Of a DNA stretch of 64,000 nucleotides, positions 30,787 to 44,893 are shown piece after piece. Source of the DNA: Planctomycetaceae bacterium (GTDB lineage: Bacteria; Planctomycetota; UBA1135; GCA-002686595); the NCBI GenBank assembly GCA_016125265.1, contig WGMC01000007.1:124001-188000 (forward strand), in the 5' to 3' direction. Under the pieces are notes generated by a model. It was not told the DNA's origin, searched no databases, and saw only the letters and a list, made by a program, of their open reading frames with translations. A program made the translations under genes and the position numbers. The first letter of the stretch is position 1. The number at the start of each line of letters is the position of its first letter.

Positions 30787-32064
30787 TCAAGAGCTCGCCG
30801 CCCGCCTAGGCGTGCGATAGACCTCGGCTCCCGCCGTCACGAGCAACAGACAGAGGGCAGCCACGGGCACCGGCCAGAGGGCCGAGAGCGGCGTGACGAC
30901 CGCGTAGTGGGAGAGGTGATCCACCATCGAACCGAGCAGCGGCGCCAGCAACGCGGCCGTCAGGCTCGTGGCTTGGGACTCGACACTGAGAACGGTCGCC
31001 TCGAGTCGCGCTGCGCCATGCTCGTCGAAACGACCCACGTGGACCGGACGCCACAGATTCTGGGCCGCGGCCAGTCCGACGAAGGCCAGCACGGCTAGCC
31101 ATCCCAAGCCGAGCGACAAGGAGGCAGCGAGACCCGCGTACAACGCGGCGATGCCGAGGACGAGAGCCCGGGCCGCGGCATCCGGCGAACCGGCGGACGC
31201 CTCGAAGCGGTGCGCACGGCGCGACGCGGCACCCGCGAGGAGGAACAGGACGAACCCGACGCCTCCAGCGAGCAGTCCCACACGCGAGCGATCGCCGCCG
31301 AAGCCGTGCAACGGCAGCGCGACCGCGAGTGTCGCCAGCACCGGCTGAACGTAATCCTTGACGACCGAGTACACACCTTCCACGCCGACGCTGGAAGAGA
31401 CGAGCCCGCGCAGGCGCGGACGGCGCCGCAGGGCGCGGCCCGCAGCGCGCAGGTACTGGAGTGAACCGCCGATGTCGCTTCGCTGGTGCGCCGCGTCCAA
31501 GCTGTTCGGGTACGTGGCGAGGTTCAAAAGGTTCAACGCGGCGGGCACGGCGCTCCCCAGAAAGATCCAGCGGTAGTCCGCGCCGAACGCCACGACCGCG
31601 CCGCCCAGGAGCGACGACGAGGCGGACCCGAACTTCGACCAGGACCTGGTGTAGCCGTAGACTGCGGTGCGCTCGTCGCTTCGTCCCTCGCGCCGCAGCC
31701 AGGCGTGGATGAGCGCCTTGTGTGTGCCGCTGCGGAAGGCCTCGCCAAAGCCGTACACCGCCATCCCCGCTGCCAGCGGCCACCAACCGTCCGCCAACCC
31801 GAGCAGGATGTAGGACACGAAGTACGCCGCGAAGCTGAGAACCATGCACCGCTTGCGGCCCCACGCGTCGGCGAGTGCCCCAGAGGGCACCTCGAGCGCG
31901 TTGGTGACGACCTCGCGCACCGCAATCAGGGTGCCGATCGAAGCGTAGTCGAGGCCGCGCTCGCGCAGCGCAATGACGAGGAACGCCTCGAAGAGCCGGA
32001 GGTTCTTGAGGAATCCGTAGAGAGAAAAACGTCGGATCAAGGTGGGTGACGGTCCACGCTCCAA
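30787..32064 (-). CDS. MFS transporter, possibly a siderophore exporter or importer
   Basis: A 425-residue inner-membrane protein with about 12 hydrophobic helices. The loop after helix 2, GALADAWGRKRCMV, is the major facilitator signature, and GEAFRSGTHKALIHAWL follows helix 4. The start is uncertain: a TTG at 32064 gives the listed protein, and another TTG about eight codons later would remove the first residues. It is divergent from the TonB-dependent receptor gene (223 bases between starts) and so probably shares its control region. In iron-uptake islands such transporters export the siderophore or take up the ferri-siderophore; the substrate here is inferred from context only. No iron-responsive Fur box is evident between the two genes. 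Confidence 0.83.
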   Translation of the reverse strand: MERGPSPTLIRRFSLYGFLKNLRLFEAFLVIALRERGLDYASIGTLIAVREVVTNALEVPSGALADAWGRKRCMVLSFAAYFVSYILLGLADGWWPLAAGMAVYGFGEAFRSGTHKALIHAWLRREGRSDERTAVYGYTRSWSKFGSASSSLLGGAVVAFGADYRWIFLGSAVPAALNLLNLATYPNSLDAAHQRSDIGGSLQYLRAAGRALRRRPRLRGLVSSSVGVEGVYSVVKDYVQPVLATLAVALPLHGFGGDRSRVGLLAGGVGFVLFLLAGAASRRAHRFEASAGSPDAAARALVLGIAALYAGLAASLSLGLGWLAVLAFVGLAAAQNLWRPVHVGRFDEHGAARLEATVLSVESQATSLTAALLAPLLGSMVDHLSHYAVVTPLSALWPVPVAALCLLLVTAGAEVYRTPRRAASS

Positions 32065-32287
32065 CGCGCCGACAGGCCGCGCGGTTCACTCGACGGGTCG
32101 GTGCGCGCCGAACGGTGCGGCGCAGCCCACTCGACCCGCGGCTGCGGCGCAATGCGCCCAACTCTTACCGACTGCGCTGAACCGACGGGGCGCAGGGTCC
32201 GTTCCGCAACCCCACGAGCGTCCCACGCACGAACCGCCATCGGCGGAAGGCTGCCGCCACCCAACCCCACGATCCTGTTGCACTTTC

Positions 32288-34579
32288 ATGTCCGATCCTC
32301 AGCCGTCCTGCGGTCTCGCCCGCGAAGCACTCCCGTCGGTCCCTGCGCGCGTCGATTCGCACAAGCGACCGAAGACTTGTGCCACTTCCGCCAACGCCCC
32401 GGACACACGTCCGCGCCCGCGCGCTGCGCGGCGGCTCGCACTCGTCGCTTGCATGGCGGCTGGACCCCTTCGCGGCGCATTGGCCCAAACCACGCCAACC
32501 GAGGAGCCTAGGCCGGAGCAGCCGGCCGTGGAACTCGGTGAGTCGACCATCGTCGCGGAGAAGGAGAACCCCGACGACGTCCGCAAGCGCACGAACACCA
32601 CCGCGGTCGGCGTTCCCGCGCAAACCGACGAGCTTCCCGTCTCCGTGACAACGATCCCCGAGCGCGTGATCGAGGACAGCCAGGCCTTCCGCCTGGCCGA
32701 CATCTACAGGCACTCGCCAAACGTTCAGGAGCCGCCGACCAAGGGCAACACGCAAAGCATCCACGTGCCCTTCATCCGCGGGTTCCAGACCGGCGGTGTG
32801 TACCGGGACGGCCTCTTCGTGCACCAAAACGGCGTCAACCTTAACACGGCGAACATCGAGCGAGTGGAGGTGTTGAAGGGTCCCCAGTCCGTGATGTTCG
32901 GATTGATGCAGCCGGGCGGAGCGATCAACTACGTCACGAAGAAGCCGCTGCACGATCGCCTCTTCGAGGTGTCGACGACCTTCGACCAGCACGGTCGCAA
33001 GGAACTTCGCACCGACTTCGGCGGGCCCTTGAATCGCGACGGAACGATCCGTTACCGCTTCAACACGTCGCTCTACGACTCCGACCTCTTCACGGACGAG
33101 GAGTTCGCCGAGGGCTACTTCCTCGCGCCCGAACTCGAGTTCGATCTCGGACCGGACACGACACTTGGGATCAGCGCATCGTTCGTCGATGAAGATCGAC
33201 TCGAGCAGGGCACGGTGGGCCTTCGTGTGGACAACGGCGAACCCGCTTGGGATCCCAAGACCTTCATCGGTGCGACCGGACTGCCCGGCAAGGACCAGTC
33301 GGAACTGATCCTCAACGCGACGTTGACCCACCACCTCTCGGAGGACTTGCGGCTGCGGTTGGAGGCGGGTTACCACGAGTACGACCTCGACCAGACCGAG
33401 AGTTTCGCGGGCGCGTTCAACGGGGTGCCAGCGTCCGGATTGATCGACATCGGCGTGCAGCGGGTGCTGCAGGAGAGCGACGGTTGGCTCTGGCGCGGCG
33501 ACGTGCTCTGGAACGTCGAAGCCGGCGGCATCGACCACGAACTCACGTTCGGCGTCGACTTCAACGACCACGATCAGGAGCGCGAGTCCGCGTCCGACGA
33601 AACGTTCTACGGGCAGGTCAACGTCTTCGATCCGGTCTTGCCGGACGGCGCCGCGAACCCATTCGATCCGGCGACTCTGAGCCGGAACACTCTGTCCCGG
33701 GACTGGCTAGGCGTCTTCGCGCAAGACGTCGTTTCCTTAGCCGATGACTCGGTGCACGTCGTCGCCAACGCGCGTTACGACACGTTCGACCAGAAATCGA
33801 CGAACAATGCGGGCACCGCTTCCGAGCTCGACGCCGACGACGTGACCGCGCGCCTTGGGGTGCTGTGGGAGGCAACCGACTGGCTTTCGCCCTACGTCAG
33901 TTGGTCCGAGTCGTTCCTTCCAAACACCGCGCGCACCGTGGACGGCGACCTCCTCGACCCAGAAGAAGGCACGCAGTACGAAGGCGGTTTGAAGCTCTCC
34001 TTCCTCGAGGACGACCTCGCGGTGTCGCTGAGCGCGTTCCGCATCGACCGCGACAACATGGCGATCGACGATCCGTCGACGAGCGCGCCGGGCTCGATCA
34101 ACGGAGGCCTCTTCCGCAGCGAAGGGGTGGAACTGGAGCTCGTCGGACGCATCACCGAGAACTTGCAGGTGCTCGCAGGCTTTGGCGCCCTGGAGGCCGA
34201 AGTCGTCCGCTCCAGCAGCCTCACGCCCGGCGACAGACTTCAAGGGGTGCCCGAAAGAACGGCAAACCTGTGGCTGACCTACGACTGGCACGTCGGGCCA
34301 CTCGCGGGCCTCGGCGTCGGTGTCGGCGCGTTCTATCGCGGGGACATCGTGACACAGTTTTCGCAGGGATTCGGCGACGTGGTGCAAGACAACTACGTCA
34401 CGGTCGATGTGTCGTCGTGGTACCGCCGCCGGATCCGTTCCGGGGTCACGCTGAAAGCCGGCCTGACGCTGATGAACGCCTTCGACGAGCAGTACAGCGT
34501 CGGGGGCTTCGGCTACACCGTGCAAGCGGGCCAACCGTTCACCCTCATCGGAACCCTCGGTTTTGCGCTCGGTATCTGA
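32288..34579 (+). CDS. TonB-dependent siderophore receptor
   Basis: A 763-residue outer-membrane receptor. A long N-terminus leads to a signal segment RRLALVACMAAGPLRGALA (about residues 55-75). A TonB-box-like stretch (ESTIVAE) follows. The plug domain (about 115-225) has LPVSVTTIPERVIEDSQAF, HVPFIRGFQTGG and NIERVEVLKGPQSVMFG. These are hallmarks of ferrichrome/pyoverdine-type receptors. The rest is a 22-strand barrel ending GTLGFALGI; the final residue is Ile rather than Phe. It would bring ferri-siderophore into the periplasm using energy from the TonB module encoded 8 kb downstream in the same run. The ATG at 32288 is the best start, but the true signal may begin later. Confidence 0.92.
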   Translation: MSDPQPSCGLAREALPSVPARVDSHKRPKTCATSANAPDTRPRPRAARRLALVACMAAGPLRGALAQTTPTEEPRPEQPAVELGESTIVAEKENPDDVRKRTNTTAVGVPAQTDELPVSVTTIPERVIEDSQAFRLADIYRHSPNVQEPPTKGNTQSIHVPFIRGFQTGGVYRDGLFVHQNGVNLNTANIERVEVLKGPQSVMFGLMQPGGAINYVTKKPLHDRLFEVSTTFDQHGRKELRTDFGGPLNRDGTIRYRFNTSLYDSDLFTDEEFAEGYFLAPELEFDLGPDTTLGISASFVDEDRLEQGTVGLRVDNGEPAWDPKTFIGATGLPGKDQSELILNATLTHHLSEDLRLRLEAGYHEYDLDQTESFAGAFNGVPASGLIDIGVQRVLQESDGWLWRGDVLWNVEAGGIDHELTFGVDFNDHDQERESASDETFYGQVNVFDPVLPDGAANPFDPATLSRNTLSRDWLGVFAQDVVSLADDSVHVVANARYDTFDQKSTNNAGTASELDADDVTARLGVLWEATDWLSPYVSWSESFLPNTARTVDGDLLDPEEGTQYEGGLKLSFLEDDLAVSLSAFRIDRDNMAIDDPSTSAPGSINGGLFRSEGVELELVGRITENLQVLAGFGALEAEVVRSSSLTPGDRLQGVPERTANLWLTYDWHVGPLAGLGVGVGAFYRGDIVTQFSQGFGDVVQDNYVTVDVSSWYRRRIRSGVTLKAGLTLMNAFDEQYSVGGFGYTVQAGQPFTLIGTLGFALGI

Positions 34580-34582
34580 ACC

Positions 34583-35626
34583 GTGACGGTGACGGTGTTC
34601 ATGCGCGCGGTCCAAGTTGCCATGACGGTTCTGGCCGCCGCGGTGCTCGTCCACCAGTCTGCTTCCTCGATCTCCAACCGAGCGCCCGGTGTCGTGACGG
34701 AACCAGACGGCAGCGACATCGTGGCGCTGGGTGAGGACGCGGGGGGGCGGTGGATCCGACATCGCGCAGGCACTACGCGCGTGCCGCTGCACCCGACGCG
34801 GGTGTGTGCGCTGAACTTCGCCGACGAACTCGTATCGCTAGGGCTAACACCTTCCGCGGTCGCAACCGATTGGCGAGAGCAGAAACTCGACTACCTGCGC
34901 GACGACTTGGCGGGGGCAGCACCGATACCGCACAGCCTGGGCCAATGGCTGCCGAGTTTCGAAGCCATCGCCGCACACGGGCCCGACCTCATCCTGACTT
35001 GGGCGGCCGATCGCCACACCTTCGAGCAGCTCTCGCGGATCGCGCCGACGGTGGTCGTGCGCACCCTCCGGGAGGTGCTCGACGAGAACGGCTCCATCGC
35101 GAGTCTGGAACAGCGACTCCGGGACATCGCGCTCGTCGTCGGACGCGAAGCGGCGGCCCTCGCTGCGATCTCCAAGTTCCGAGAGCACCTCACTGCGAGC
35201 CGCGAGCTCCTCGGCGACACGATGGATGGGCGAACGATCGCCTTCGTGCGCGCTCGAGGGCGCCAGTGGCGCCTCTACGGCAAACACGATGAGTGCGGCG
35301 GAGAGGCGATCTACGCTGGGTTGGGACTCGAAGCGCCCGCACTCGTCCGCGACCGCGGCACGGAGTTGGACCCAGAGCGTCTACTCGCATTCGATGCGGA
35401 CTTCCTCGTCGTGGTGGCCGACCCGATGTTGGCCTCGGACGAGGCGCTGCAGCGCCTGCAAACGCATCCCCTCTGGAACCGGATCCGCGCCGTGAACACG
35501 GGCCACGTGCACCGCGTCGAGGCGCTGGAGCATTGGATCCTCAGCGGACTCCTCGGAAAGGCGCGGATGATCGACGACGCCGTCAGTTGTGCCCTTGCTC
35601 CCTGCGGTAGGAGTACATCGGAGTGA
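34583..35626 (+). CDS. Iron-siderophore ABC transporter substrate-binding protein
   Basis: A 347-residue periplasmic binding protein of the FecB/FhuD type. The N-terminal hydrophobic segment (AMTVLAAAVLVHQSASS) is a signal peptide or anchor without a lipobox Cys. Family landmarks are RVCALNFADELVSLGLTP, HGPDLILTWAADRHTFEQLS, a central long helix, and HRVEALEHWILSGLLGKARM near the end. It would carry the ferri-siderophore to the FecCD permeases. The GTG at 34583 is 3 bases after the receptor stop; an ATG at 34601 in the same frame is an equally possible start. Its stop overlaps the next start (GTGA). Confidence 0.88.
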   Translation: MTVTVFMRAVQVAMTVLAAAVLVHQSASSISNRAPGVVTEPDGSDIVALGEDAGGRWIRHRAGTTRVPLHPTRVCALNFADELVSLGLTPSAVATDWREQKLDYLRDDLAGAAPIPHSLGQWLPSFEAIAAHGPDLILTWAADRHTFEQLSRIAPTVVVRTLREVLDENGSIASLEQRLRDIALVVGREAAALAAISKFREHLTASRELLGDTMDGRTIAFVRARGRQWRLYGKHDECGGEAIYAGLGLEAPALVRDRGTELDPERLLAFDADFLVVVADPMLASDEALQRLQTHPLWNRIRAVNTGHVHRVEALEHWILSGLLGKARMIDDAVSCALAPCGRSTSE

Positions 35627-36621
35627 GCCACCTGGGTTCCGCGCGGTTACCGTGGGTGGCGGCGCTGTGCGCGCTTCTTGCGCTCGCCCTCGGCATTCTT
35701 GCCGCGCCGCCGATGGTATCGCCCATGCGAATGTGGGAAGCGCTTCGCTCCAGCGACGTCGACGATCCTCTGCGGCTTTCGCTAGAGCACGTGCGGCTAC
35801 CGCGAGCGCTGCTCGCCGCGACGATCGGCGCGGGGCTAAGCGCAGGCGGCCTTGTCATGCAAATGCTCAGCGGCAATCCACTGGCCACCCCGTCGGTGCT
35901 CGGGGTCAGCAACGGTGCCGCTCTAGGCTTGGTGGCAGCGGTCGCTTGGATCGACGGCGCGAGCGACGCCGCGGTGACGGGAGCGAGCTTCCTCGGCGCG
36001 GCTATCACCAGTTCCGCGATCGCCTTGCTCGCCTTTGCCAGCGGATCGGCGGTGCGCGGGGAGTCGTTGGTGGTCGCCGGCAGCATCCTCGGTGCCTTCT
36101 GCGGCAGCATCGTGACGGCGGTCGTTTTCTTCAACTCGATGCAGAACGAGATGCTCGGATGGACACTCGGGCGACTCGTGCACGTCGACTGGGCGCAGGT
36201 GACGTTCGCGCTGCCCGCGGTGTCCGTGGGCATCGTTCTGGCTGCCGCATGCGTGGGGCGTCTTGACACCATGCGACTTGGGGACACCACGGCGCGCGTT
36301 CTCGGTGTCCCGGTGGCGGCGGTTCGGGCCACCGCCATCGCGGCGATCGTGCTCGTCACGGGGGGAAGTGTTGCTGCGGCGGGGCCCGTGGCCTACGTCG
36401 GATTGATCGTGCCCCACGTGCTTCGTCGCGCCCGCTTGCGCCCCGGCCAACGTCTGGTCGCCTGTGCGGGACTCGGCGCCGTACTGACGAGCATGGCCGA
36501 TCTTCTGTCACGCCACGTCACGGGGCCGCGTGTGGTGCCGCTCGGGATCTGGACCATGTCGATCGGTGCGCTCTTTTTCTTTGCGCTGGCACTGAGAGGG
36601 CACGGGAGGTTCGACGAATGA
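35623..36621 (+). CDS. FecCD-family siderophore ABC permease (first)
   Basis: A 332-residue inner-membrane permease with about ten helices. It carries the FecCD pattern RLPRALLAATIGAGLSAGG near the N-terminus, GNPLATPSVLGVSNGAALGL after it, and GPVAYVGLIVPHVLRR in the C-terminal half, where the coupling helix meets the ATPase. It pairs with the next gene to form the translocation channel. Start GTG overlaps the binding-protein stop as GTGA; its own stop overlaps the next start as ATGA. Confidence 0.92.
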   Translation: MSHLGSARLPWVAALCALLALALGILAAPPMVSPMRMWEALRSSDVDDPLRLSLEHVRLPRALLAATIGAGLSAGGLVMQMLSGNPLATPSVLGVSNGAALGLVAAVAWIDGASDAAVTGASFLGAAITSSAIALLAFASGSAVRGESLVVAGSILGAFCGSIVTAVVFFNSMQNEMLGWTLGRLVHVDWAQVTFALPAVSVGIVLAAACVGRLDTMRLGDTTARVLGVPVAAVRATAIAAIVLVTGGSVAAAGPVAYVGLIVPHVLRRARLRPGQRLVACAGLGAVLTSMADLLSRHVTGPRVVPLGIWTMSIGALFFFALALRGHGRFDE

Positions 36622-37604
36622 GCCGACATCCCCACCTCGGTCGCTGGGCACTCGTCTTGCTGGCGCTAGTGCTCGTGGAGCGCGAACTGGGGCTACTCGG
36701 TGTCGTCGCTTCGCTGATCCAGCACGGACGGATCGAGCCTTGGCTCCAAACCGTTTTCGTCGACTTCCGGCTCCCCCGCCTGGTGCTGGCGGTACTGGTC
36801 GGGAGCGGCATGGCTATTTCGGGCTGGACCATCCAGAAGGCCGCCCGCAACCCGATGGCGAGCCCGGCGACCGTGTCGGTCAACGAGGCCGCCGCACTCG
36901 GAATCGTGCTTGCGTTGGCGCTCAGCGGCGGCGAGCTGCTGGGGTCGACGCTGATGCCGTGGATCGCCGCCGCCGCGGGGACCGCCTCGGCGCTGCTCCT
37001 GTACTCCATCGTTGGGCGGCGGCGGAGGCTGGACGGTTCCGGCCTTCTGCTGTGCGGCATCGCGCTGGGTGCGCTTTGGAGCGCGGCCGGCTTTGCGATC
37101 GCCTTGAACGCCCATCCGACCACGTACGAGTACGCCCTGGCTTGGCTCGTGGGCTCGTTGTCGAAGGCCACTTGGGACTACGTCCTCTTGCTCTTCCCGG
37201 CGTGGTGGTTCCTCTCGTTGGCCGCCCATCTGTGCGCGTCGCGGATCGACGTCTTGGGTCTCGAAGATCCGGTTGTCCAAGTGCTCGGTGGGTTCCCGGA
37301 TCGCTGGCGACGCGTTGCGCTGTGTGCCGGGGCCGCGCTTGCGGCGGCGTGCATCGGTGTTTCCGGCAGCTTCGGCTTTCTCGGGTTCCTCGCGCCCGCG
37401 CTCGTGCGGACGCTGCGGATGGGCAGCTTCGCGACGCCGTGGACGAGCGCCGTCGTTGGGGCGCTGGTGCTCCTCGCCGCCGACGCTTTGGGTCGACAGG
37501 TGATGGCGCCCGCGGAGGTTCCGGCGGGCATCGTCATAGCGATCACCGGCGCGCCCCTGTTTCTCCTCGGTCTGGTCGCGTGGAGGCGTGTGCAACCCGC
37601 GTGA
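36618..37604 (+). CDS. FecCD-family siderophore ABC permease (second)
   Basis: A 328-residue permease with the same plan: RLPRLVLAVLVGSGMAISGW, then RNPMASPATVSVNEAAALGI, and GFLGFLAPALVRTLR in the coupling region. It differs from the first permease over most of its length, as expected for a heterodimer (FecC plus FecD). The start overlaps the first permease by ATGA and the stop overlaps the ATPase start by GTGA, implying tightly linked translation of all transporter subunits. Confidence 0.92.
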   Translation: MSRHPHLGRWALVLLALVLVERELGLLGVVASLIQHGRIEPWLQTVFVDFRLPRLVLAVLVGSGMAISGWTIQKAARNPMASPATVSVNEAAALGIVLALALSGGELLGSTLMPWIAAAAGTASALLLYSIVGRRRRLDGSGLLLCGIALGALWSAAGFAIALNAHPTTYEYALAWLVGSLSKATWDYVLLLFPAWWFLSLAAHLCASRIDVLGLEDPVVQVLGGFPDRWRRVALCAGAALAAACIGVSGSFGFLGFLAPALVRTLRMGSFATPWTSAVVGALVLLAADALGRQVMAPAEVPAGIVIAITGAPLFLLGLVAWRRVQPA

Positions 37605-38425
37605 ATCACCGAATCTCCCGACTGCTCGCCCGCGATCTCACGGTCGGGTATGGCGATGCCACGGTTCTGGACGGCCTCGATCTCGAGCTCCGCGATGGCC
37701 GCGTGACGACGATCCTAGGGCCCAACGGTTGTGGGAAGTCGACGCTCCTGCGGACCCTCGCCCGGGTGCTCGCGCCGTCGCGTGGCTCCGTGATCTTGGA
37801 CGGAGTCGAACTGCACCGCCAACCCACCCGCGCGGTGGCGAGGCTCCTCGCCATGCTGCCGCAGTCGTCACGCGCACCAGCGGAACTTCGCGTGCGAGAC
37901 CTCGTCGCCTACGGCAGGTTCCCGCACCGAGCGTGGTATGCGCGACTGGACGCCGCCGATCGCACCGCGGTTGCTTCGGCGCTCACCTCGGTCGGCTTGG
38001 AGCCGTTGGCGGACCGCCCACTCGAGACCCTGTCGGGAGGAGAGCGTCAACGGGCTTGGATCGCGATGGCCCTGGCGCAAGAGACGCCGCTTCTGCTCCT
38101 CGACGAACCCACGACCTCGCTCGACGTCGCACACCAACTGGAAGTGCTCGAACTCGTGCGGCAGCTTCAGCGGACGAAGGAAAAAACCGTGGTGATGGTC
38201 TTGCACGACATCAACCTCGCGGCTCGGTTCTCCGACTGCATCGTTTTGATGCGCGACGGCGTGATCCTGGCCACCGGCACTCCGCAAGAGGTCATTCTCG
38301 CGGACTTCCTACGCGACGCCTATGGCGTGGACGGGCGCGTCGACTACGACCGCGATCTAGAAGCGCCCGCGTTCGTTCCGTACCGCAGCGTGGGCGCTCG
38401 GCCCACGGGAGCACAACACCGATGA
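37601..38425 (+). CDS. FecE-type ABC transporter ATPase
   Basis: A 274-residue ATPase energising the siderophore permease. Walker A is GPNGCGKST (residues 40-48), the Q loop is in MLPQSSRAPAELRVRD, the signature LSGGERQ is at 144-150, Walker B LLLLDEP at 164-170, and the switch His is in VLHDINLA. The Q-loop to AYGRFPHR segment is typical for iron-siderophore and cobalamin importers. The start GTG overlaps the permease stop; the stop overlaps the next gene as ATGA. Confidence 0.95.
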   Translation: MNHRISRLLARDLTVGYGDATVLDGLDLELRDGRVTTILGPNGCGKSTLLRTLARVLAPSRGSVILDGVELHRQPTRAVARLLAMLPQSSRAPAELRVRDLVAYGRFPHRAWYARLDAADRTAVASALTSVGLEPLADRPLETLSGGERQRAWIAMALAQETPLLLLDEPTTSLDVAHQLEVLELVRQLQRTKEKTVVMVLHDINLAARFSDCIVLMRDGVILATGTPQEVILADFLRDAYGVDGRVDYDRDLEAPAFVPYRSVGARPTGAQHR

Positions 38426-39645
38426 GGAATGAGATCCCCAGCAACTGGACGGCTGAAGTGGAAACGGTGGAGCAAGCGCGGCAATGGTACCGCGCCACGG
38501 CGCACGAGTTTGCGGGCCGTCCGGCGCTAGCACCGAGCATCGAACTGGCACGGAGGGTGCTCGGCGAAGCACTTTGGATCGAGAACCAGTGCGCAAGGGT
38601 CGGCGCCGGAGTGAGCTTCGCAATTCCCGTGCGCCAAGTGGCGACATGGGCTGCGCGAGGAGCTGTGCTCGTCTATCTCGCCGATCAGGTGCTCTTGGAA
38701 GTGACCCGGCCCGAGAGCGCGCCGGAGCTCGTCCCACCGCGCACTCCGGTCGTTTTGGACCCCGCGCACGCCGTGCGCTTCCTGACAGCGTCGACGGAAC
38801 AGGAGTCGGAACTTGTGCTGATCCGAGCGGCCGCGCCGTCGATGCTGCCGCCGCGGCGGCGGTTCAGCGCCCGTGTTTTCGCACGCACACCGAGTTCCTC
38901 GGGCGAACAATTGAGTGTCGACTGGACGAAACAGCGACTGCTGCACTTTCTATCCCATCCACGGATTGTGGCGCAACTGGAGCCGGCAACCATGGAGGAC
39001 GTGGCGTCGGAACCGATCTTCGACGCATGTGCGATCCCGATGGCATCGACGATCGGTGGTCCGTTGCTCCACCGTTTCCTCGAGGCACTTCCGCCGGACT
39101 GGCGCGTTCCGTCCGCCGACGTGCGGGTGGGGGTTACGCGGGACGAGCTTTCGCCGGGATGGAATCCGTGCGCCGTGAACTTCCACATCGACGGCACGAG
39201 CAGAGTTCGAAAGCGCGCGGACGGACACCCGGATCTCGTCGATCCGGGGCCGACGGTCGATCAGATGATCGCGTGTTTCGGGCCCGCATCGCCGACGCGC
39301 TTCCTCGTCGGTGAGGTTGTGTTGCCCGAGCCGCCCGCCGGCGATGTCGCTCGAGCCGCCGGGCCGCGGTGGGCCACCATTCTGGACGAGCACCTCCGCA
39401 GCGGTCGCCTGACCGAGTGGAACGCGCCCAGCGACGCGCTGGTCGAATTCGGCTTCGGTGTCTTCCACACGGGCGCGGTGTCCCGGCGCCCGGGCTGGCG
39501 TTGTTTCGTGAAGGCGATGCGCAACCGCGGCGATCCCATGCCGACGGCACCGACCTACCGCGATCGAAACAGCGTCAGTTGGCCGATCGATGGGCCCGAG
39601 TATCCGAGCGATCCGTGCGGGGTCTTTCCAGAGGACGTGCCGTGA
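38422..39645 (+). CDS. Unrecognised protein with an HxD...H...R pattern (candidate Fe(II)/2-oxoglutarate oxygenase) in the siderophore run
   Basis: A 407-residue soluble protein that I cannot place in a named family. The C-terminal half holds NFHIDG with H255 and D257, then H349 in FGFGVFHTGAVSRR, and R360 eleven residues later in RPGWRCFVKAMR. This spacing is what cupin-fold Fe(II)/2-oxoglutarate oxygenases use for iron (HxD...H) and for 2-oxoglutarate (Arg). The N-terminal 200 residues are alpha/beta and unlike known oxygenases. It is locked between the transporter ATPase and DUF3450 by overlapping start/stop codons, so it is made together with them. A role in modifying or opening the imported siderophore is possible, by analogy with the PiuC-type oxygenases found beside TonB receptors. 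The oxygenase call is inference from a pattern. Confidence 0.5.
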   Translation: MRNEIPSNWTAEVETVEQARQWYRATAHEFAGRPALAPSIELARRVLGEALWIENQCARVGAGVSFAIPVRQVATWAARGAVLVYLADQVLLEVTRPESAPELVPPRTPVVLDPAHAVRFLTASTEQESELVLIRAAAPSMLPPRRRFSARVFARTPSSSGEQLSVDWTKQRLLHFLSHPRIVAQLEPATMEDVASEPIFDACAIPMASTIGGPLLHRFLEALPPDWRVPSADVRVGVTRDELSPGWNPCAVNFHIDGTSRVRKRADGHPDLVDPGPTVDQMIACFGPASPTRFLVGEVVLPEPPAGDVARAAGPRWATILDEHLRSGRLTEWNAPSDALVEFGFGVFHTGAVSRRPGWRCFVKAMRNRGDPMPTAPTYRDRNSVSWPIDGPEYPSDPCGVFPEDVP

Positions 39646-40499
39646 TGGGGGCCAATGACGCACAGAGCGGCAGGCGATGCGGAGCGGGTCGGGCGACGGC
39701 GCTGCTTTCGGCGCTTGGACTCTGTCTGGGAGCGTCGCAGGGCGCAGCGCCGCTTCCCACCGCACCGCAGCACGTCGACAACGAACTCGCCCGCGAAGTT
39801 CACGCGACCGTGGCGCGGAATGAGGCCCTTTCGCACGAGCTCCGGCGCGTGGTCGAGGAACGCGATCGGTGGCGTCAGGACTCCGTGGGCAATCGACAGC
39901 AATTGGAGCGAGAGCTCGCCGATGCACGTGCCAGCGCGACGGCGTTGCGCGACGAGTTGCAGAAGTTCGAAAGGCTGCGCGCCGCCGCGGATTTGCGCGC
40001 GGGCGCCGACGGCAAGCGCATTGCGGCCGCGACTGACGCGGCGCGAGATCTCGCCGCGCGCTTGGCCTTGCGGCTCCAACACGCGGTCCCGTCCCTTCGG
40101 CGCCGTGCGCGCGACTTTGCCGAGGTGTCCGCCCGACTCGAATTCGACGGGACGGAGTCGGTGGACGCCCTTCTCGATCTGCATCGCCTGGCCGAAGAGT
40201 CGCTGCGCCTGGGGCGTGAGCGCACAGCGCTGAGCCGGCTGGTGCCGATCCCCGGAACCGACCGCGAGAAACACGCGTGGGTCGTGCGACTCGGTGGGGT
40301 CCTCGAGTTCTACGTTACCGAGGATCGCGAGTTTGCGGCGACGGCCTCTCGGGAGGGCGACGGCGCCGGCTGGCGGGAACTTCCGATCGAGTGGGCAGAG
40401 GCCGTGGATTCGGCTGCCGAGGTGCTTCGGGGCCGAGCGGGTGCCACCATGGTCACCCTGCCCGTGGGAATGGAGTCGCTGGACGGCGGCCTACGATGA
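39645..40499 (+). CDS. DUF3450 family protein of a TonB2-type energy module
   Basis: A 284-residue exported protein: signal segment (about residues 16-34, ending GASQGA), then a long coiled-coil (about 45-125) with ELxRxVEERDRWRQD pattern, and a C-terminal globular part with GGVLEFYVTEDREF and RELPIEW. Length, coil and position directly before a TtpC-like gene match DUF3450 proteins, periplasmic partners in TonB2 systems. The ATG shares one base with the previous stop (TGATG). A stop/start overlap (ATGA) links it to the next gene. Confidence 0.75.
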   Translation: MGANDAQSGRRCGAGRATALLSALGLCLGASQGAAPLPTAPQHVDNELAREVHATVARNEALSHELRRVVEERDRWRQDSVGNRQQLERELADARASATALRDELQKFERLRAAADLRAGADGKRIAAATDAARDLAARLALRLQHAVPSLRRRARDFAEVSARLEFDGTESVDALLDLHRLAEESLRLGRERTALSRLVPIPGTDREKHAWVVRLGGVLEFYVTEDREFAATASREGDGAGWRELPIEWAEAVDSAAEVLRGRAGATMVTLPVGMESLDGGLR

Positions 40500-42004
40500 G
40501 GCGGCGGCTCGCGATTCTCCCGATGGCGCTGCTCGCGCTCGTTCCCGTCGTGTCGGGGCCGTTGACGCAGCACCCCTCCGCCACCGCGATCGACGGGCGC
40601 CTGGCCGCGTTGCAGGAAGAGTCCATCGACTTGCAGCACAAGCTCCTCGATGCTCGGGAAGGGTTCGCGGCCGAGCGCGGTGAGGCTCTCGCGTTTGCGA
40701 ACGACGCAGCAGGTGAGCTCGTGGACCTCGAACTCGAGCGACTCTCCCTGGAAGATGCCGTCGAAGCGGCGCGTCTGGCTACGGATGTGGCCGAGTCTCG
40801 CGCCAAGGATCGGGCCGCCGACGTGCGGCGAATCGACGCCAGCCAGCGGCAGATCGCGGAGTACGTCGGCGTGCTGTTGTCCGAGTTGCCGTACGGTCCC
40901 ACGCTGGCCCCGCGGCTCACTGCATGCAACGATTGTTTGGACGCTGGCCGCAGCGGCGATGCGGAACTCGTCCTCGCGGAGCTCGTGGATGGGCTCGACC
41001 GCCGCGCGCAGCAGGTTGCCGTCGGCAATTGCAATCTGCGGACGGCCAATGGGGAATCCGCGAATGTCGAGCTCTTGGAGATTGGCCTCTTCGCCTTCGC
41101 CTACCGCACTGCCGAGGATTTGGCGATCTCGTTCGCCGCACCGCGGGATGCGAACGGGTTCCGTTGGCGCGAGGGCCTGCCCGAGCAACTCGCCGCACAG
41201 TGGGCGGCGTTGTTCGAAGCGGCGCGAGGTGCGCGCGAAGGAACGCTCGGTGTGCCAATGGATGTGTCGGGGTCGTTGGGTCTCGATGTGCCGCTCCTGG
41301 CGCCGTTGCTCGTCGACCGCTTCCGAGCGGGCGGACCCGTGATGTGGCCCCTGGCGGCGGTCGCCGTGCTTTGCCTGCTGCTCGGCTTGGAGCGGGCGGT
41401 CGCGCTTTGGTGGCGTACGCGTCCCAATGCCGACCTTGGCGCAGGCGTCGCTCGGATGCTGCGGAACGGGGACGTCGCGGGTGCGACGGCGCTCGCTGGG
41501 TCGCGGGACGGACCAGTCGCCCGCGCGGTGACTGCCGTGCTGCACGCGTTGGACGTTCCCCGTTCGGCGCGGGAGGATCGCCTGCAGGAGGTGCTCCTTC
41601 GCGAGGCTCCGCGCCTTCGACGCTCACTGCGGGCGATGGCCATGCTCGCGACGATCGCGCCGCTGCTCGGACTGCTCGGAACGATCACCGGCATCATCGA
41701 GACATTCGGGGTCCTCCACTCCACGGGTACGAACGATCCGAACGCCATGGCCGGGGGAATCTCCGAGGCGCTCCTGACCACGGCGACGGGACTTGTTATC
41801 GCGATCCCCGTCCTTCTTTGGCACGGTCTGCTGCGCGGCCGCGCCGACGCACTCCTGGCCGCGGCGGAGGGTCAGTCCGTGGTGGTTCTGAACGCGGCGG
41901 ATTCCGTGGGAGTCGAAGCGCGGACCACCGCGCGCGCGGTTCGGGTTGCTGGCCAGGTCCAGCGGGAAGGAGGCGCTGCACCCCACGCGGGAGCCGGCGA
42001 GTAG
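40496..42004 (+). CDS. TtpC-like long MotA/TolQ/ExbB proton-channel protein
   Basis: A 502-residue protein. Residues 1-20 form a signal or anchor. A periplasmic coiled-coil and globular part (about 25-275) follows, then a C-terminal ExbB/TolQ domain with three helices (PVMWPLAAVAVLCLLLGLE, LATIAPLLGLLGTITGIIE and EALLTTATGLVIAIPVLLWH). The conserved GLLGTITG and the TTATGL segment are the proton-channel signature. TtpC is an extra long ExbB homologue found only in TonB2-type systems, where it joins TonB2, ExbB2 and ExbD2. Overlaps at both ends or a 3-base gap place it in the same coupled unit. Confidence 0.85.
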   Translation: MRRRLAILPMALLALVPVVSGPLTQHPSATAIDGRLAALQEESIDLQHKLLDAREGFAAERGEALAFANDAAGELVDLELERLSLEDAVEAARLATDVAESRAKDRAADVRRIDASQRQIAEYVGVLLSELPYGPTLAPRLTACNDCLDAGRSGDAELVLAELVDGLDRRAQQVAVGNCNLRTANGESANVELLEIGLFAFAYRTAEDLAISFAAPRDANGFRWREGLPEQLAAQWAALFEAARGAREGTLGVPMDVSGSLGLDVPLLAPLLVDRFRAGGPVMWPLAAVAVLCLLLGLERAVALWWRTRPNADLGAGVARMLRNGDVAGATALAGSRDGPVARAVTAVLHALDVPRSAREDRLQEVLLREAPRLRRSLRAMAMLATIAPLLGLLGTITGIIETFGVLHSTGTNDPNAMAGGISEALLTTATGLVIAIPVLLWHGLLRGRADALLAAAEGQSVVVLNAADSVGVEARTTARAVRVAGQVQREGGAAPHAGAGE

Positions 42005-42007
42005 GCG

Positions 42008-42559
42008 ATGTTGCACCTGTTCTCCGAGGGCGGCTGGCCGCTGGCTGCGATCCTGCTCCTATCCGCGGCGGGATGGTGGATTGCGTGCAGACGTCTCTTC
42101 GACGTGCGGCGCGACGAACGCGGACTCCAGCGGGGCGACACACGGCACCCGCCTACGGATTCGGTGGCGGGCCGGATGCTGCAGCGGCTGGAGCTCATCG
42201 CGCCCGTGTTGCCGTCGCGGGAAGCGATCCAGGGTTGGTGCCGCGAGGAACGGGGTCGACTGAAGGCCGGCTTACCGCTTGTCGCAACCATCGCCGCCGC
42301 GTGCCCACTCTTGGGCTTGCTCGGCACACTTCTCGGGATGATCCACACGTTCCGCGGCCTCGGCGTCGACGGCCCTGTCGGACGGGAGGTCATCGCGGAA
42401 GGGATCGCGGCGGCGTTGACGAGTACGCAGGCGGGCCTCGTCGCCGCCCTTCCACTCGTGGTCTTGCACGGATACGTCGGCGCGCGCGCGGAACGTGCAG
42501 TCGCGGCGATCGAACGCCACACGACCCGTTGGGTGTCGCTTCGGGAGCCGGCGCCGTGA
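42008..42559 (+). CDS. exbB: ExbB proton-channel protein
   Basis: A 183-residue inner-membrane protein of the short ExbB type (ExbB2-like). A first helix (about 10-26), a cytoplasmic segment, and a helical pair with CPLLGLLGTLLGMIHTF and LTSTQAGLVAALPLVVLH. The Thr and Ala-Leu-Pro residues are those lining the proton path in ExbB/TolQ/MotA proteins. It works with ExbD and TonB to pass proton-motive force to the outer-membrane receptor. It starts 3 bases after the TtpC-like stop. Confidence 0.92.
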   Translation: MLHLFSEGGWPLAAILLLSAAGWWIACRRLFDVRRDERGLQRGDTRHPPTDSVAGRMLQRLELIAPVLPSREAIQGWCREERGRLKAGLPLVATIAAACPLLGLLGTLLGMIHTFRGLGVDGPVGREVIAEGIAAALTSTQAGLVAALPLVVLHGYVGARAERAVAAIERHTTRWVSLREPAP

Positions 42560-42978
42560 TCCGCTCCCAATCGATCTGGTCCCACGAGTCGGAGACGCCG
42601 CTCGCCATCGACATGGCGCCGCTGATCGACATCGTGTTCATTCTGCTCGTGTTCTTTCTCGTGACGACGACGTTCTCGCGCGACGAGGGAATCGGCGTGG
42701 AGCGTCCGGTGGCCACCACATCGACGCCCCTGCCATCGGTCGCGCTGCGCGTTCACATCACGAAATCGGGAGCTTGTTTCGTCGGAGGTCAGGCGACGCC
42801 GCTCGCCGGGATCCGGCAGCGAGTGGAGGAGCTGCTGCCCGCGGGCGACAACGCCGCCGTGGTCGTCGTCCCCGATCGAGCCGTTCTCGCGGGCACGCTG
42901 GTGCAGGTGCTCGACGAGATCGCCGCCATCGGAGTGGCGGATGTGTCGATCGCGACGCGGCAGGAGGATGTCCCGTGA
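42556..42978 (+). CDS. exbD: ExbD biopolymer transport protein
   Basis: A 140-residue protein with short cytoplasmic N-terminus, one helix (about 20-43) and a periplasmic domain. The essential membrane Asp is D25 in MAPLIDIVFILLVFF, the same number as in E. coli. The periplasmic part ends with the typical VLDEIAAIGVADVSIATR block. GTG start overlaps the exbB stop (GTGA) and its stop overlaps the tonB start (GTGA). Confidence 0.95.
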   Translation: MIRSQSIWSHESETPLAIDMAPLIDIVFILLVFFLVTTTFSRDEGIGVERPVATTSTPLPSVALRVHITKSGACFVGGQATPLAGIRQRVEELLPAGDNAAVVVVPDRAVLAGTLVQVLDEIAAIGVADVSIATRQEDVP

Positions 42979-43724
42979 CCTGGCCGCGCTCGAGCGGTCG
43001 CGAGCTGGTTGCGATCTCCGTGACATTGGCGTTCCATACGCTTCTGCTGGCGGCGTTGCTTGCGCTGCGACCGTCTGCAAACGAGCCGAGCGAGTCGAGT
43101 GTCCCGCCGCGGATTGCGCTCGCGCGCGCTGAGCCGCCGTCCGTCCGCTCTCCGACGCTGCCCGAGGCCGAACCACCAACACCAACCCCGCGGCGCGCGC
43201 TGGCGCCCGTGCCCGCGATCCCCGGTCTTCCGCTGCACGCAGCTCCGCTCGAAACGGGCGTAGTGCTTCCGCCTGTCCCGTTCCATCCGCTGCCGATCGA
43301 GCCGCCCGGAGTTTCACACGTCAGGTCCACCGAAACTGCGGCGGCGGCCTCGGCGGCGGCCTCGGCGGCGCCATCCGCGCCATCGCGTGCGCGCACTTCG
43401 GAGCTCCGCACAGACACGGGTCCCGTGGACGCGAAGGGCGTCGACGTTCCCCCGAGGGAGTTTCCCACAAACCACCAACCCGACTATCCGGCCTCGGCGA
43501 GGCGCCAGGGACGGGAGGGCTACGTTCGCGTGCGGATCGACATCGACGCACGTGGCGAGGTCGAGGAGGTTCGCACACTCGCCGCCGAGGGTGTGGATGC
43601 ATTCCGTCAGTCCGTTCAGCGCGCCGTCGGGCGCTGGCGTTTCACTCCGGCGATGCACGAGGGTCGCGCCATACCCGTATTTGCGGAGAAGACGTTCCAC
43701 TTCCAGCTTCAAGGAGGTCCGTGA
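42975..43724 (+). CDS. tonB: TonB energy transducer
   Basis: A 249-residue protein with one N-terminal helix (about 11-30), a Pro/Ala-rich periplasmic linker (about 35-165) and a C-terminal TonB domain (about 168-249) with DYPASARRQGREGYVRVRI, VGRWRFTPAM and FAEKTFHFQL. In the helix, the SxxxH motif that contacts ExbB/ExbD appears as T17-x3-H21, a conservative change. It would link the ExbBD channels to the receptor encoded upstream in the same run. The GTG start overlaps exbD by 4 bases. Confidence 0.93.
   Translation: MTWPRSSGRELVAISVTLAFHTLLLAALLALRPSANEPSESSVPPRIALARAEPPSVRSPTLPEAEPPTPTPRRALAPVPAIPGLPLHAAPLETGVVLPPVPFHPLPIEPPGVSHVRSTETAAAASAAASAAPSAPSRARTSELRTDTGPVDAKGVDVPPREFPTNHQPDYPASARRQGREGYVRVRIDIDARGEVEEVRTLAAEGVDAFRQSVQRAVGRWRFTPAMHEGRAIPVFAEKTFHFQLQGGP
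43711..43717 (+). promoter_or_regulatory. Strong Shine-Dalgarno sequence for the TPR gene
   Basis: AAGGAGG ends 6 bases before the ATG at 43724 and decides for this ATG over the GTG three bases earlier. It lies inside the last codons of tonB. It is one of the few perfect Shine-Dalgarno sequences in the window, so the TPR protein may be made at a higher or independent rate. Confidence 0.7.
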
Positions 43725-44893
43725 TGCCGTGGAATTGGGTCCGACACATGTTTGCAGTCGTAGCGCTCCTTGGCGGAACTCAGGTGGCCGCCCAGGGCGC
43801 CGCGGAGGATCTGTGGCGGGAAGCGCTGCGGCTCATCGAGGCCAAGCAGCAGGGGGAGGCAGTTCGGCTCCTCGAGGAGAGGATGCGCGACGCGCCCCAA
43901 GACGGGGAGGCCCTGCGACTCTTGGGGCACGCGCAGTTCGAGCTCGACCCTGCGGCCGCACGCCGCGCGTTTGCGCAGAGCGTCGTGCGCGGGTACTTCG
44001 CACCGAGCACACTTTCCGCCATGGCCACCCTCGACCGCGAACGAGGTCGCGCTGGCGCGGCGCTGTGGGCGCTCGACATGCTGGCCTGGCTCGAGCCCGA
44101 GGTCGACCCCGCGCAACTCGTGCGTGTGCAGCTCCTCGACGAACTGGGACGCGCGGACGAGGCGATCGCGCTCGGGGAGACGTACGTTCGCGACAACCCC
44201 GGCGCGGTGTCCGGTTGGCGTGTGCTGGGAGCGCTGCAACAGCGGCGCGGCGACATCGATGCGGCGATCGTGTCGCTCTCGACCGCCTACGCGCTGCACC
44301 CGGCCCAGGACGATGTGGCGCGCCAATTGGCCGCACTGCACCAGCTCGGCGGCAACGCCAATCGTGCGCTCGAATGGTACCTACGCGACGCTTCGCGGGC
44401 GACCGTGCACGGTGTGACCTCCGACCTCGAGCACGCGCGCATGTTGCTCGCGGCGGACGCGCCGGAGCGAGCGGCCGCGCTGCTCCGCGGTTTGCCGCCG
44501 TCGGACGTGGCGTCCGGTGAAGTGCAGGCCTTGTTGGGTCACGCCGCCTTGCGAGCTGGCGACGGCGACGCGGCCATCGCCGCCTGGCGCGCCGCCGCTG
44601 CCACCGGTGTCGTCGACGGAGCCACACTAGTGCACGTCGTGGCAGCGGACTTGGACGCGGGTCGCCGGGCGAAACTGGCGGAGATCGTGCCGCGACTCGA
44701 CGTCTGGGACCAACACGATGGGGGAGGACGCGACACGCGGGTCACGCAGCTCCTGGTCCTGGGGCATCTCTCGTTGGGGCAACGCGCCGAGGCGTCGTCG
44801 GCCATCCGGCGGCGGGTAGCGCGGCTCGGGCTCGATGGAGTGTCGCGCGACCTGCTCCGGCAGTTGCACGCATCCGCGGGCCAGGTCCCGTGA
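43724..44893 (+). CDS. TPR-repeat protein closing the TonB2-type module
   Basis: A 389-residue exported protein: signal peptide (residues 1-24, MFAVVALLGGTQVAAQ) and helical repeats with the TPR pattern (GEALRLLGHAQFELDPAAA, AIVSLSTAYALHP, LGHAALRAGDGDAAIAAWR). A TPR protein is the last gene of TonB2 operons in Vibrio-type bacteria, where it is thought to support the complex in the periplasm. Its ATG overlaps the tonB stop by one base. It ends 9 bases from the stop of the convergent GT2 gene, which marks the right end of the island. Confidence 0.85.
   Translation: MPWNWVRHMFAVVALLGGTQVAAQGAAEDLWREALRLIEAKQQGEAVRLLEERMRDAPQDGEALRLLGHAQFELDPAAARRAFAQSVVRGYFAPSTLSAMATLDRERGRAGAALWALDMLAWLEPEVDPAQLVRVQLLDELGRADEAIALGETYVRDNPGAVSGWRVLGALQQRRGDIDAAIVSLSTAYALHPAQDDVARQLAALHQLGGNANRALEWYLRDASRATVHGVTSDLEHARMLLAADAPERAAALLRGLPPSDVASGEVQALLGHAALRAGDGDAAIAAWRAAAATGVVDGATLVHVVAADLDAGRRAKLAEIVPRLDVWDQHDGGGRDTRVTQLLVLGHLSLGQRAEASSAIRRRVARLGLDGVSRDLLRQLHASAGQVP

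Follow-up and report, generated by a model that had tools for sequence, protein, structure and literature searches.

A predicted Fe(II)/2-oxoglutarate oxygenase of a mainly phage-encoded family in a siderophore-uptake gene run of a planctomycete

Oxygenases of the PiuC/YbiX/CciO type, which belong to the Fe(II)/2-oxoglutarate (2OG) superfamily, have been linked to siderophore receptors (PMC12004947). The CciT receptor needs the cytoplasmic dioxygenase CciO for transport and growth support, and the authors of that work do not choose among siderophore breakdown, siderophore synthesis and action on a different substrate as the role of the enzyme (PMC12004947). A second described system, the TonB2 operon of Vibrio vulnificus, has six genes, the first of which encodes the DUF3450 protein TtpB2 (PMC6957404). 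The 64,000-nucleotide stretch of planctomycete DNA analyzed here, which we call the window, holds an operon-like run in which a gene for a putative Fe(II)/2OG oxygenase lies between a Fec-type importer and a TonB2-type module.

The run is on the plus strand and begins with a TonB-dependent siderophore receptor (32042-34579, the limits of the open reading frame, with the true start not fixed), which scores above the cutoff of TIGR01783; its best equivalog models, PRK14050, FhuA and FoxA, are all below their own cutoffs. It is followed by a FecB-like periplasmic binding protein (34583-35626; PF01497) and then, assigned by family matches, two FecCD permeases (35623-36621 and 36618-37604) and a FecE-like ABC ATPase (37601-38425). 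The oxygenase gene (38422-39645) comes next, four genes apart from the receptor. Downstream are a TtpB-like DUF3450 protein (39645-40499; weak Pfam match) and, again by family match, a TtpC-like MotA/TolQ/ExbB protein (40496-42004, start approximate), ExbB (42008-42559), ExbD (42556-42978, start approximate), TonB (42975-43724, start approximate) and a TPR protein in the TtpD position (43721-44893). These last six genes match the order of the Vibrio vulnificus TonB2 operon (PMC6957404). No canonical Fur box, allowing up to three mismatches, was found within the window.

The oxygenase gene translates into 407 residues and a stop. Translation, a profile match and a structural model together describe a two-part protein with a predicted Fe(II)/2OG oxygenase as its C-terminal half. 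Its ATG at 38422 overlaps the stop of the ABC ATPase gene as ATGA, and its stop codon TGA (39643-39645) runs into the start codon of the DUF3450 gene (ATG at 39645) as TGATG. Both overlaps had been reported in the first-pass annotation, and translation likewise places H255-x-D257, H349 and R360 exactly where that annotation had put them. Neither a signal peptide nor a membrane helix was found in the 407-residue protein. Codon use is coding-like, in the annotated frame, for both halves of the gene, so the N-terminal part (residues 1-171, 38422-38934) looks like a genuine coding region. In the full-length AlphaFold2 model this region is mostly helical, and residues 1-160 have low confidence. When the N-terminal 172 residues were searched against 392 Planctomycetota genomes, the only matches besides the protein itself were borderline (E 0.0016-0.01 per genome), which is chance level for 392 genomes. 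The N-terminal ~170 residues are a new extension: coding, with neither a detectable relative nor a confident fold. The oxygenase assignment, which had been given to the protein as a whole, holds for the C-terminal half only, a division missed at first reading.

Pfam and NCBIfam scans returned no family for the window protein at E<10, and nothing useful for four phage-type relatives. The initial description of a protein with no recognizable family stands for these two databases. It does not extend to PHROG 1843 ('unknown function'), which in a profile search matches residues 190-370 with an E-value of 5.7e-19, and which also matches the relatives in phages and, among bacteria, the catalytic paralogue described below. 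By profile match and alignment, the C-terminal half (approximately residues 172-375; 38935-39546) belongs to a family that is represented by phrog_1843 but by neither a Pfam nor an NCBIfam model, and whose mainly phage membership had gone unnoticed. A tblastn search hit 371 phage records, including many from T4-like phages (best E 2e-17), with matches that cover the C-terminal half only at ~27-30% identity, and a scan of IMG/VR added 75 further loci with family members. The phage proteins are single-domain and ~215-240 residues long, while the window protein carries ~170 additional N-terminal residues, for a total of 407, and departs from the ~222-residue length typical of phrog_1843. The phage proteins mostly read HHDD, whereas the window protein and its relative in G205 read HIDG. 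The window protein also has an iron-uptake context, in contrast to the phage proteins, which have no known link to iron.

Among the Planctomycetota genomes sampled the gene is rare, being found by profile search in seven (G163, G205, G281, G353, G466, G143 and G228) besides the window's own. At the sensitivity of the first search, only the window's genome among 101 related genomes carries it. The closest relative, in the Planctomycetota MAG G205 (JAHCJK010000139.1), shares 54% identity over residues 205-407 and is cut by a contig end; it was the sole close relative in a scan of genome contigs.

All 59 aligned homologs have the same residue at each of the positions H255, D257, H349 and R360. 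Since only 13 of the 209 well-filled columns of this alignment are invariant, the chance that four chosen positions would all be so is ~1e-5. From the alignments, H255-I-D257 (39184-39192) and H349 (39466-39468) are the predicted Fe(II) ligands and R360 (39499-39501) is the predicted 2OG-binding arginine. A second alignment, built from ten phage and bacterial members of greater diversity, again shows no variation at the four positions, and the same H-x-D, H and R are found in phrog_1843 proteins such as VR7 gp134 (Tevenvirinae). R360 follows H349 by 11 positions in all 59 sequences. Such a spacing fits the Fe(II)/2OG superfamily, where a basic residue stands 10-12 positions past the distal histidine of the HxD...H triad. 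The one exception is the podophage protein P0004 (L005:3043-3699), which lies outside both alignments and reads RHDD instead of HHDD, with an arginine at the H255 position; judging from this motif, its first metal ligand may be lost or shifted by one residue. An ungapped reading of P0004 had made H255 appear to be a variable position, a view abandoned when the wider alignments showed it to be invariant elsewhere.

AlphaFold2 predicted a confident β-fold for the C-terminal domain, with pLDDT ~85-97 across most of residues 172-375, and a separate AlphaFold model of a phage relative had a mean pLDDT of 94.8. When compared with the PDB using VIA-align, the window model matched almost only Fe(II)/2OG oxygenases, among them OkaE (Z 8.4, rmsd 4.2, 166 residues), GriE (Z 8.0), EctD (Z 8.0) and ABH2 (Z 7.7). 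The phage model matched OkaE (Z 9.1, rmsd 4.0, 162 residues) as well as EctD, GriE, FtmOx1 and PHD2, and among the 50 matches listed all were Fe(II)/2OG superfamily oxygenases by title. Z-scores of ~8-9 are modest alone, and the argument lies in the uniform identity of the neighbors together with the four invariant residues. The closest folds (Z ~8-9) are those of OkaE, FtmOx1, AsqJ, GriE and EctD, which are phytanoyl-CoA-type or natural-product-tailoring enzymes, at ~10-16% identity in the structural alignments. Searches of PDB sequences with single proteins and with a 59-row profile gave chance matches only. The double-stranded β-helix (jelly-roll) core of the superfamily is present in the predicted models, in which the phage protein and the window domain share one kind of fold. 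The Fe(II)/2OG reading of the first-pass annotation is thus supported by conserved residues, which do not vary across the 59 homologs and ten diverse members, and by two predicted structures, which do contain a jelly roll. Taken by itself, the identity of the C-terminal domain as an Fe(II)/2OG-dependent oxygenase is very probable. By extension from the models, phrog_1843, widespread in T4-like phages, is a predicted Fe(II)/2OG oxygenase family. Literature searches turned up no account of this phage family as an oxygenase, and with relatives in hundreds of phage records, which include many T4-like ones, it gains a testable function.

How does this protein compare with the oxygenases already linked to siderophore receptors? 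Like PiuC, YbiX and CciO, which are PKHD-type enzymes encoded beside the Fiu, PiuA and CciT receptors, it is encoded with a siderophore receptor and has no signal peptide, and by analogy the same superfamily chemistry would be expected. In sequence the two differ. The E. coli protein YbiX, a relative of CciO, has matches to PF13640 and PKHD_C, whereas the window protein has neither; pairwise BLASTP gives only an E-value of 0.012, around the FHxDG motif, and profile comparison gives a probability of 0.4%. The window protein may work like PiuC/YbiX/CciO yet is not detectably of that family.

We then asked where else the gene occurs. Five Planctomycetota loci were assessable (the window, G281, G353, G466 and G143), while G205, G163 and G228 have it on contigs too short or cut. 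In four of these five, Fec-type siderophore uptake genes are adjacent or close by. The order in G281 is binding protein, FecCD, ATPase, paralogue A, catalytic paralogue B and ThuA, with B directly after the Fec transporter and ~1.5 kb from FecCD. G353 has the same gene set, with the related gene ~3.7 kb from FecCD, and in the closed genome G466 the A-B-ThuA genes are ~11.5 kb from a locus of receptor, binding protein, FecCD and ATPase. No Fec genes were found near the family gene in G143. As there are so few FecCD matches in each genome (three each in G281, G353 and G466, four in the window's genome), the chance of such closeness is estimated at ~1% or less per genome, with G281, G353 and G466 carrying the same cassette and so not fully independent.

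The tandem A-B-ThuA sets of these three genomes (L089:4134-6310, L088:3484-5895 and L104:4763-6903) resemble the window system in that B is of the same family, conserves the four residues and is beside or near Fec-type transporters. They differ from it in the presence of paralogue A and ThuA and in the lack of an N-terminal extension on B. Paralogue A has lost the metal ligands, and from the sequences A and B are possibly a pseudoenzyme-enzyme pair. Searches with the TonB, DUF3450 and two ExbB proteins of the window gave no match in the G281, G353 and G466 stretches. With Fec genes near and TonB2 genes absent in these stretches, the oxygenase tracks with Fec-type import and not with TonB2. Overall, the oxygenase gene is likely to be linked to iron uptake. 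A family unrelated in sequence to PiuC/YbiX/CciO, repeatedly beside Fec-type importers in another phylum, suggests a recurring oxygenase step in siderophore use, and the window system offers a second place to find the substrate of siderophore-linked oxygenases.

In a first tree, which included one mis-framed row, phage and bacterial rows were separate. When the tree was rerun without that row, the deep order among phage and bacterial lineages was not resolved. In these trees the G205 protein is the partner of the window protein, which does not fall inside a group of closely related phage sequences. In the rerun tree, the window/G205 proteins and those of G281, G353 and G466 form separate deep lineages, so function may differ between them. 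Recent capture from a phage, considered as an origin, does not follow from these trees.

The reading that we prefer is a cytoplasmic step after siderophore import. The TonB receptor, FecB-like protein, two FecCD permeases and FecE-like ATPase make up a complete import path for siderophores and would bring a ferri-siderophore into the cytoplasm. Fec-type permeases deliver their substrate there, and the oxygenase has neither signal peptide nor membrane helix, so it would meet the imported carrier in that compartment. Binding Fe(II) through H255, D257 and H349 and 2OG through R360, it would hydroxylate or oxidatively cleave the carrier, which could lower the carrier's grip on iron or clear the emptied ligand. 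A search limited to IucA/IucC synthetases found none in the window's genome or in three relatives, which leans toward the use of foreign siderophores. By analogy with the described systems, we consider this whole chain, from a cytoplasmic Fe(II)/2OG oxygenase oxidizing an imported siderophore to iron release or ligand clearance, to have about an even chance of being right. Siderophore modification for iron release had been proposed from the window alone. It gains indirect support from three more Planctomycetota genomes, in which related oxygenase genes are next to or near Fec-type transporters, and from the link of PiuC/YbiX/CciO to receptors (PMC12004947), while catalysis, cytoplasmic location, a siderophore substrate and iron release are steps that we infer. 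Counting against this reading are the predominance in the family of phage proteins, which have no known link to iron, the rarity of the gene, the G143 locus with no Fec genes nearby and the deep split between the window/G205 and G281/G353/G466 lineages. More tentatively, and with the balance somewhat against it, these Planctomycetota proteins could form a second family of Fe(II)/2OG oxygenases that process siderophores, unrelated in sequence to the first and drawn from a mostly phage lineage. In some species they would act together with the inactive paralogue and a ThuA-like protein, and this cytoplasmic unit would take siderophores apart after import.

The same locus could instead make what it imports, with the oxygenase producing or tailoring a siderophore or other metallophore that is exported by the product of a divergent MFS gene and taken up again. 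A gene for an MFS-type transporter (30787-32064, minus strand) is indeed divergent from the receptor gene, and reading by eye finds a similar gene divergent from the siderophore receptor in G466 (L122:1122-2444); the structural neighbors are largely natural-product tailoring enzymes, and for CciO, too, biosynthesis is among the roles that its authors consider (PMC12004947). The MFS protein may carry a siderophore, but that cargo is an assumption, no synthase gene was recognized in the run from receptor to TPR protein, and the four genomes lack IucA/IucC, so we regard biosynthesis as unlikely. An oxygenase can also act as a sensor: Fe(II)/2OG enzymes can sense oxygen or iron, as established for the HIF prolyl hydroxylases. 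These are among the structural neighbors of the phage model, and the N-terminal region, predicted to be mostly helical at low confidence, could be a binding or interaction domain of an enzyme that acts on a protein or small molecule, senses oxygen or iron status in this way and regulates uptake. The operon holds no recognized regulator or partner, however, and the relatives in G281, G353 and G466 do without the N-terminal extension, which makes a sensor a poor bet.

Two further readings would detach the oxygenase from siderophore chemistry. The gene could be an acquired phage-type oxygenase, unrelated in function to iron and in the operon by accident, as most relatives are phage proteins and 1 of 101 related genomes, the window's own, carries it. 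We think this improbable: the window protein groups with G205 and, as far as the trees resolve, outside any set of close phage proteins, Fec genes also adjoin members of a separate bacterial lineage, and the gene overlaps its neighbors at both ends. The overlap of its stop with the DUF3450 start is what favors a new structural or energizing component of the TonB2 module, the alternative put forward in the first-pass annotation. This idea has lost most of its ground and is now very hard to credit, as the six-gene Vibrio TonB2 operon has no oxygenase gene (PMC6957404), the protein has no signal peptide or membrane helix, and the expected co-occurrence failed, a TonB2 module being seen in the window but not in the G281, G353 and G466 stretches, which matched none of the DUF3450, ExbB and TonB queries.

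The loci surveyed also hold several features outside the oxygenase question. The window at 39645-44893 has the full TonB2-type order DUF3450-TtpC-ExbB-ExbD-TonB-TPR in a planctomycete. A search of 100 related genomes at E 0.001 gave no homolog of its DUF3450 protein, which suggests that this module is rare or was acquired. In G353, the Fec ATPase gene is separated from the oxygenase pair by an SPFH/Band 7 gene and a radical-SAM gene (L088:5696-7788). Prepilin-like proteins with FTLIELLVV-type N-termini adjoin the Fec binding protein in G353 and G281 (L105 and L106, upstream of its gene). Among the phage-type members, VR7 gp134 (L003:2983-3669) adjoins e.2 and nudE, and the 110-kb record LR890700.1, which is filed as a Klebsiella plasmid, has genes for a family member (L002:8986-9672) and a RecA-like protein and resembles a phage-plasmid.
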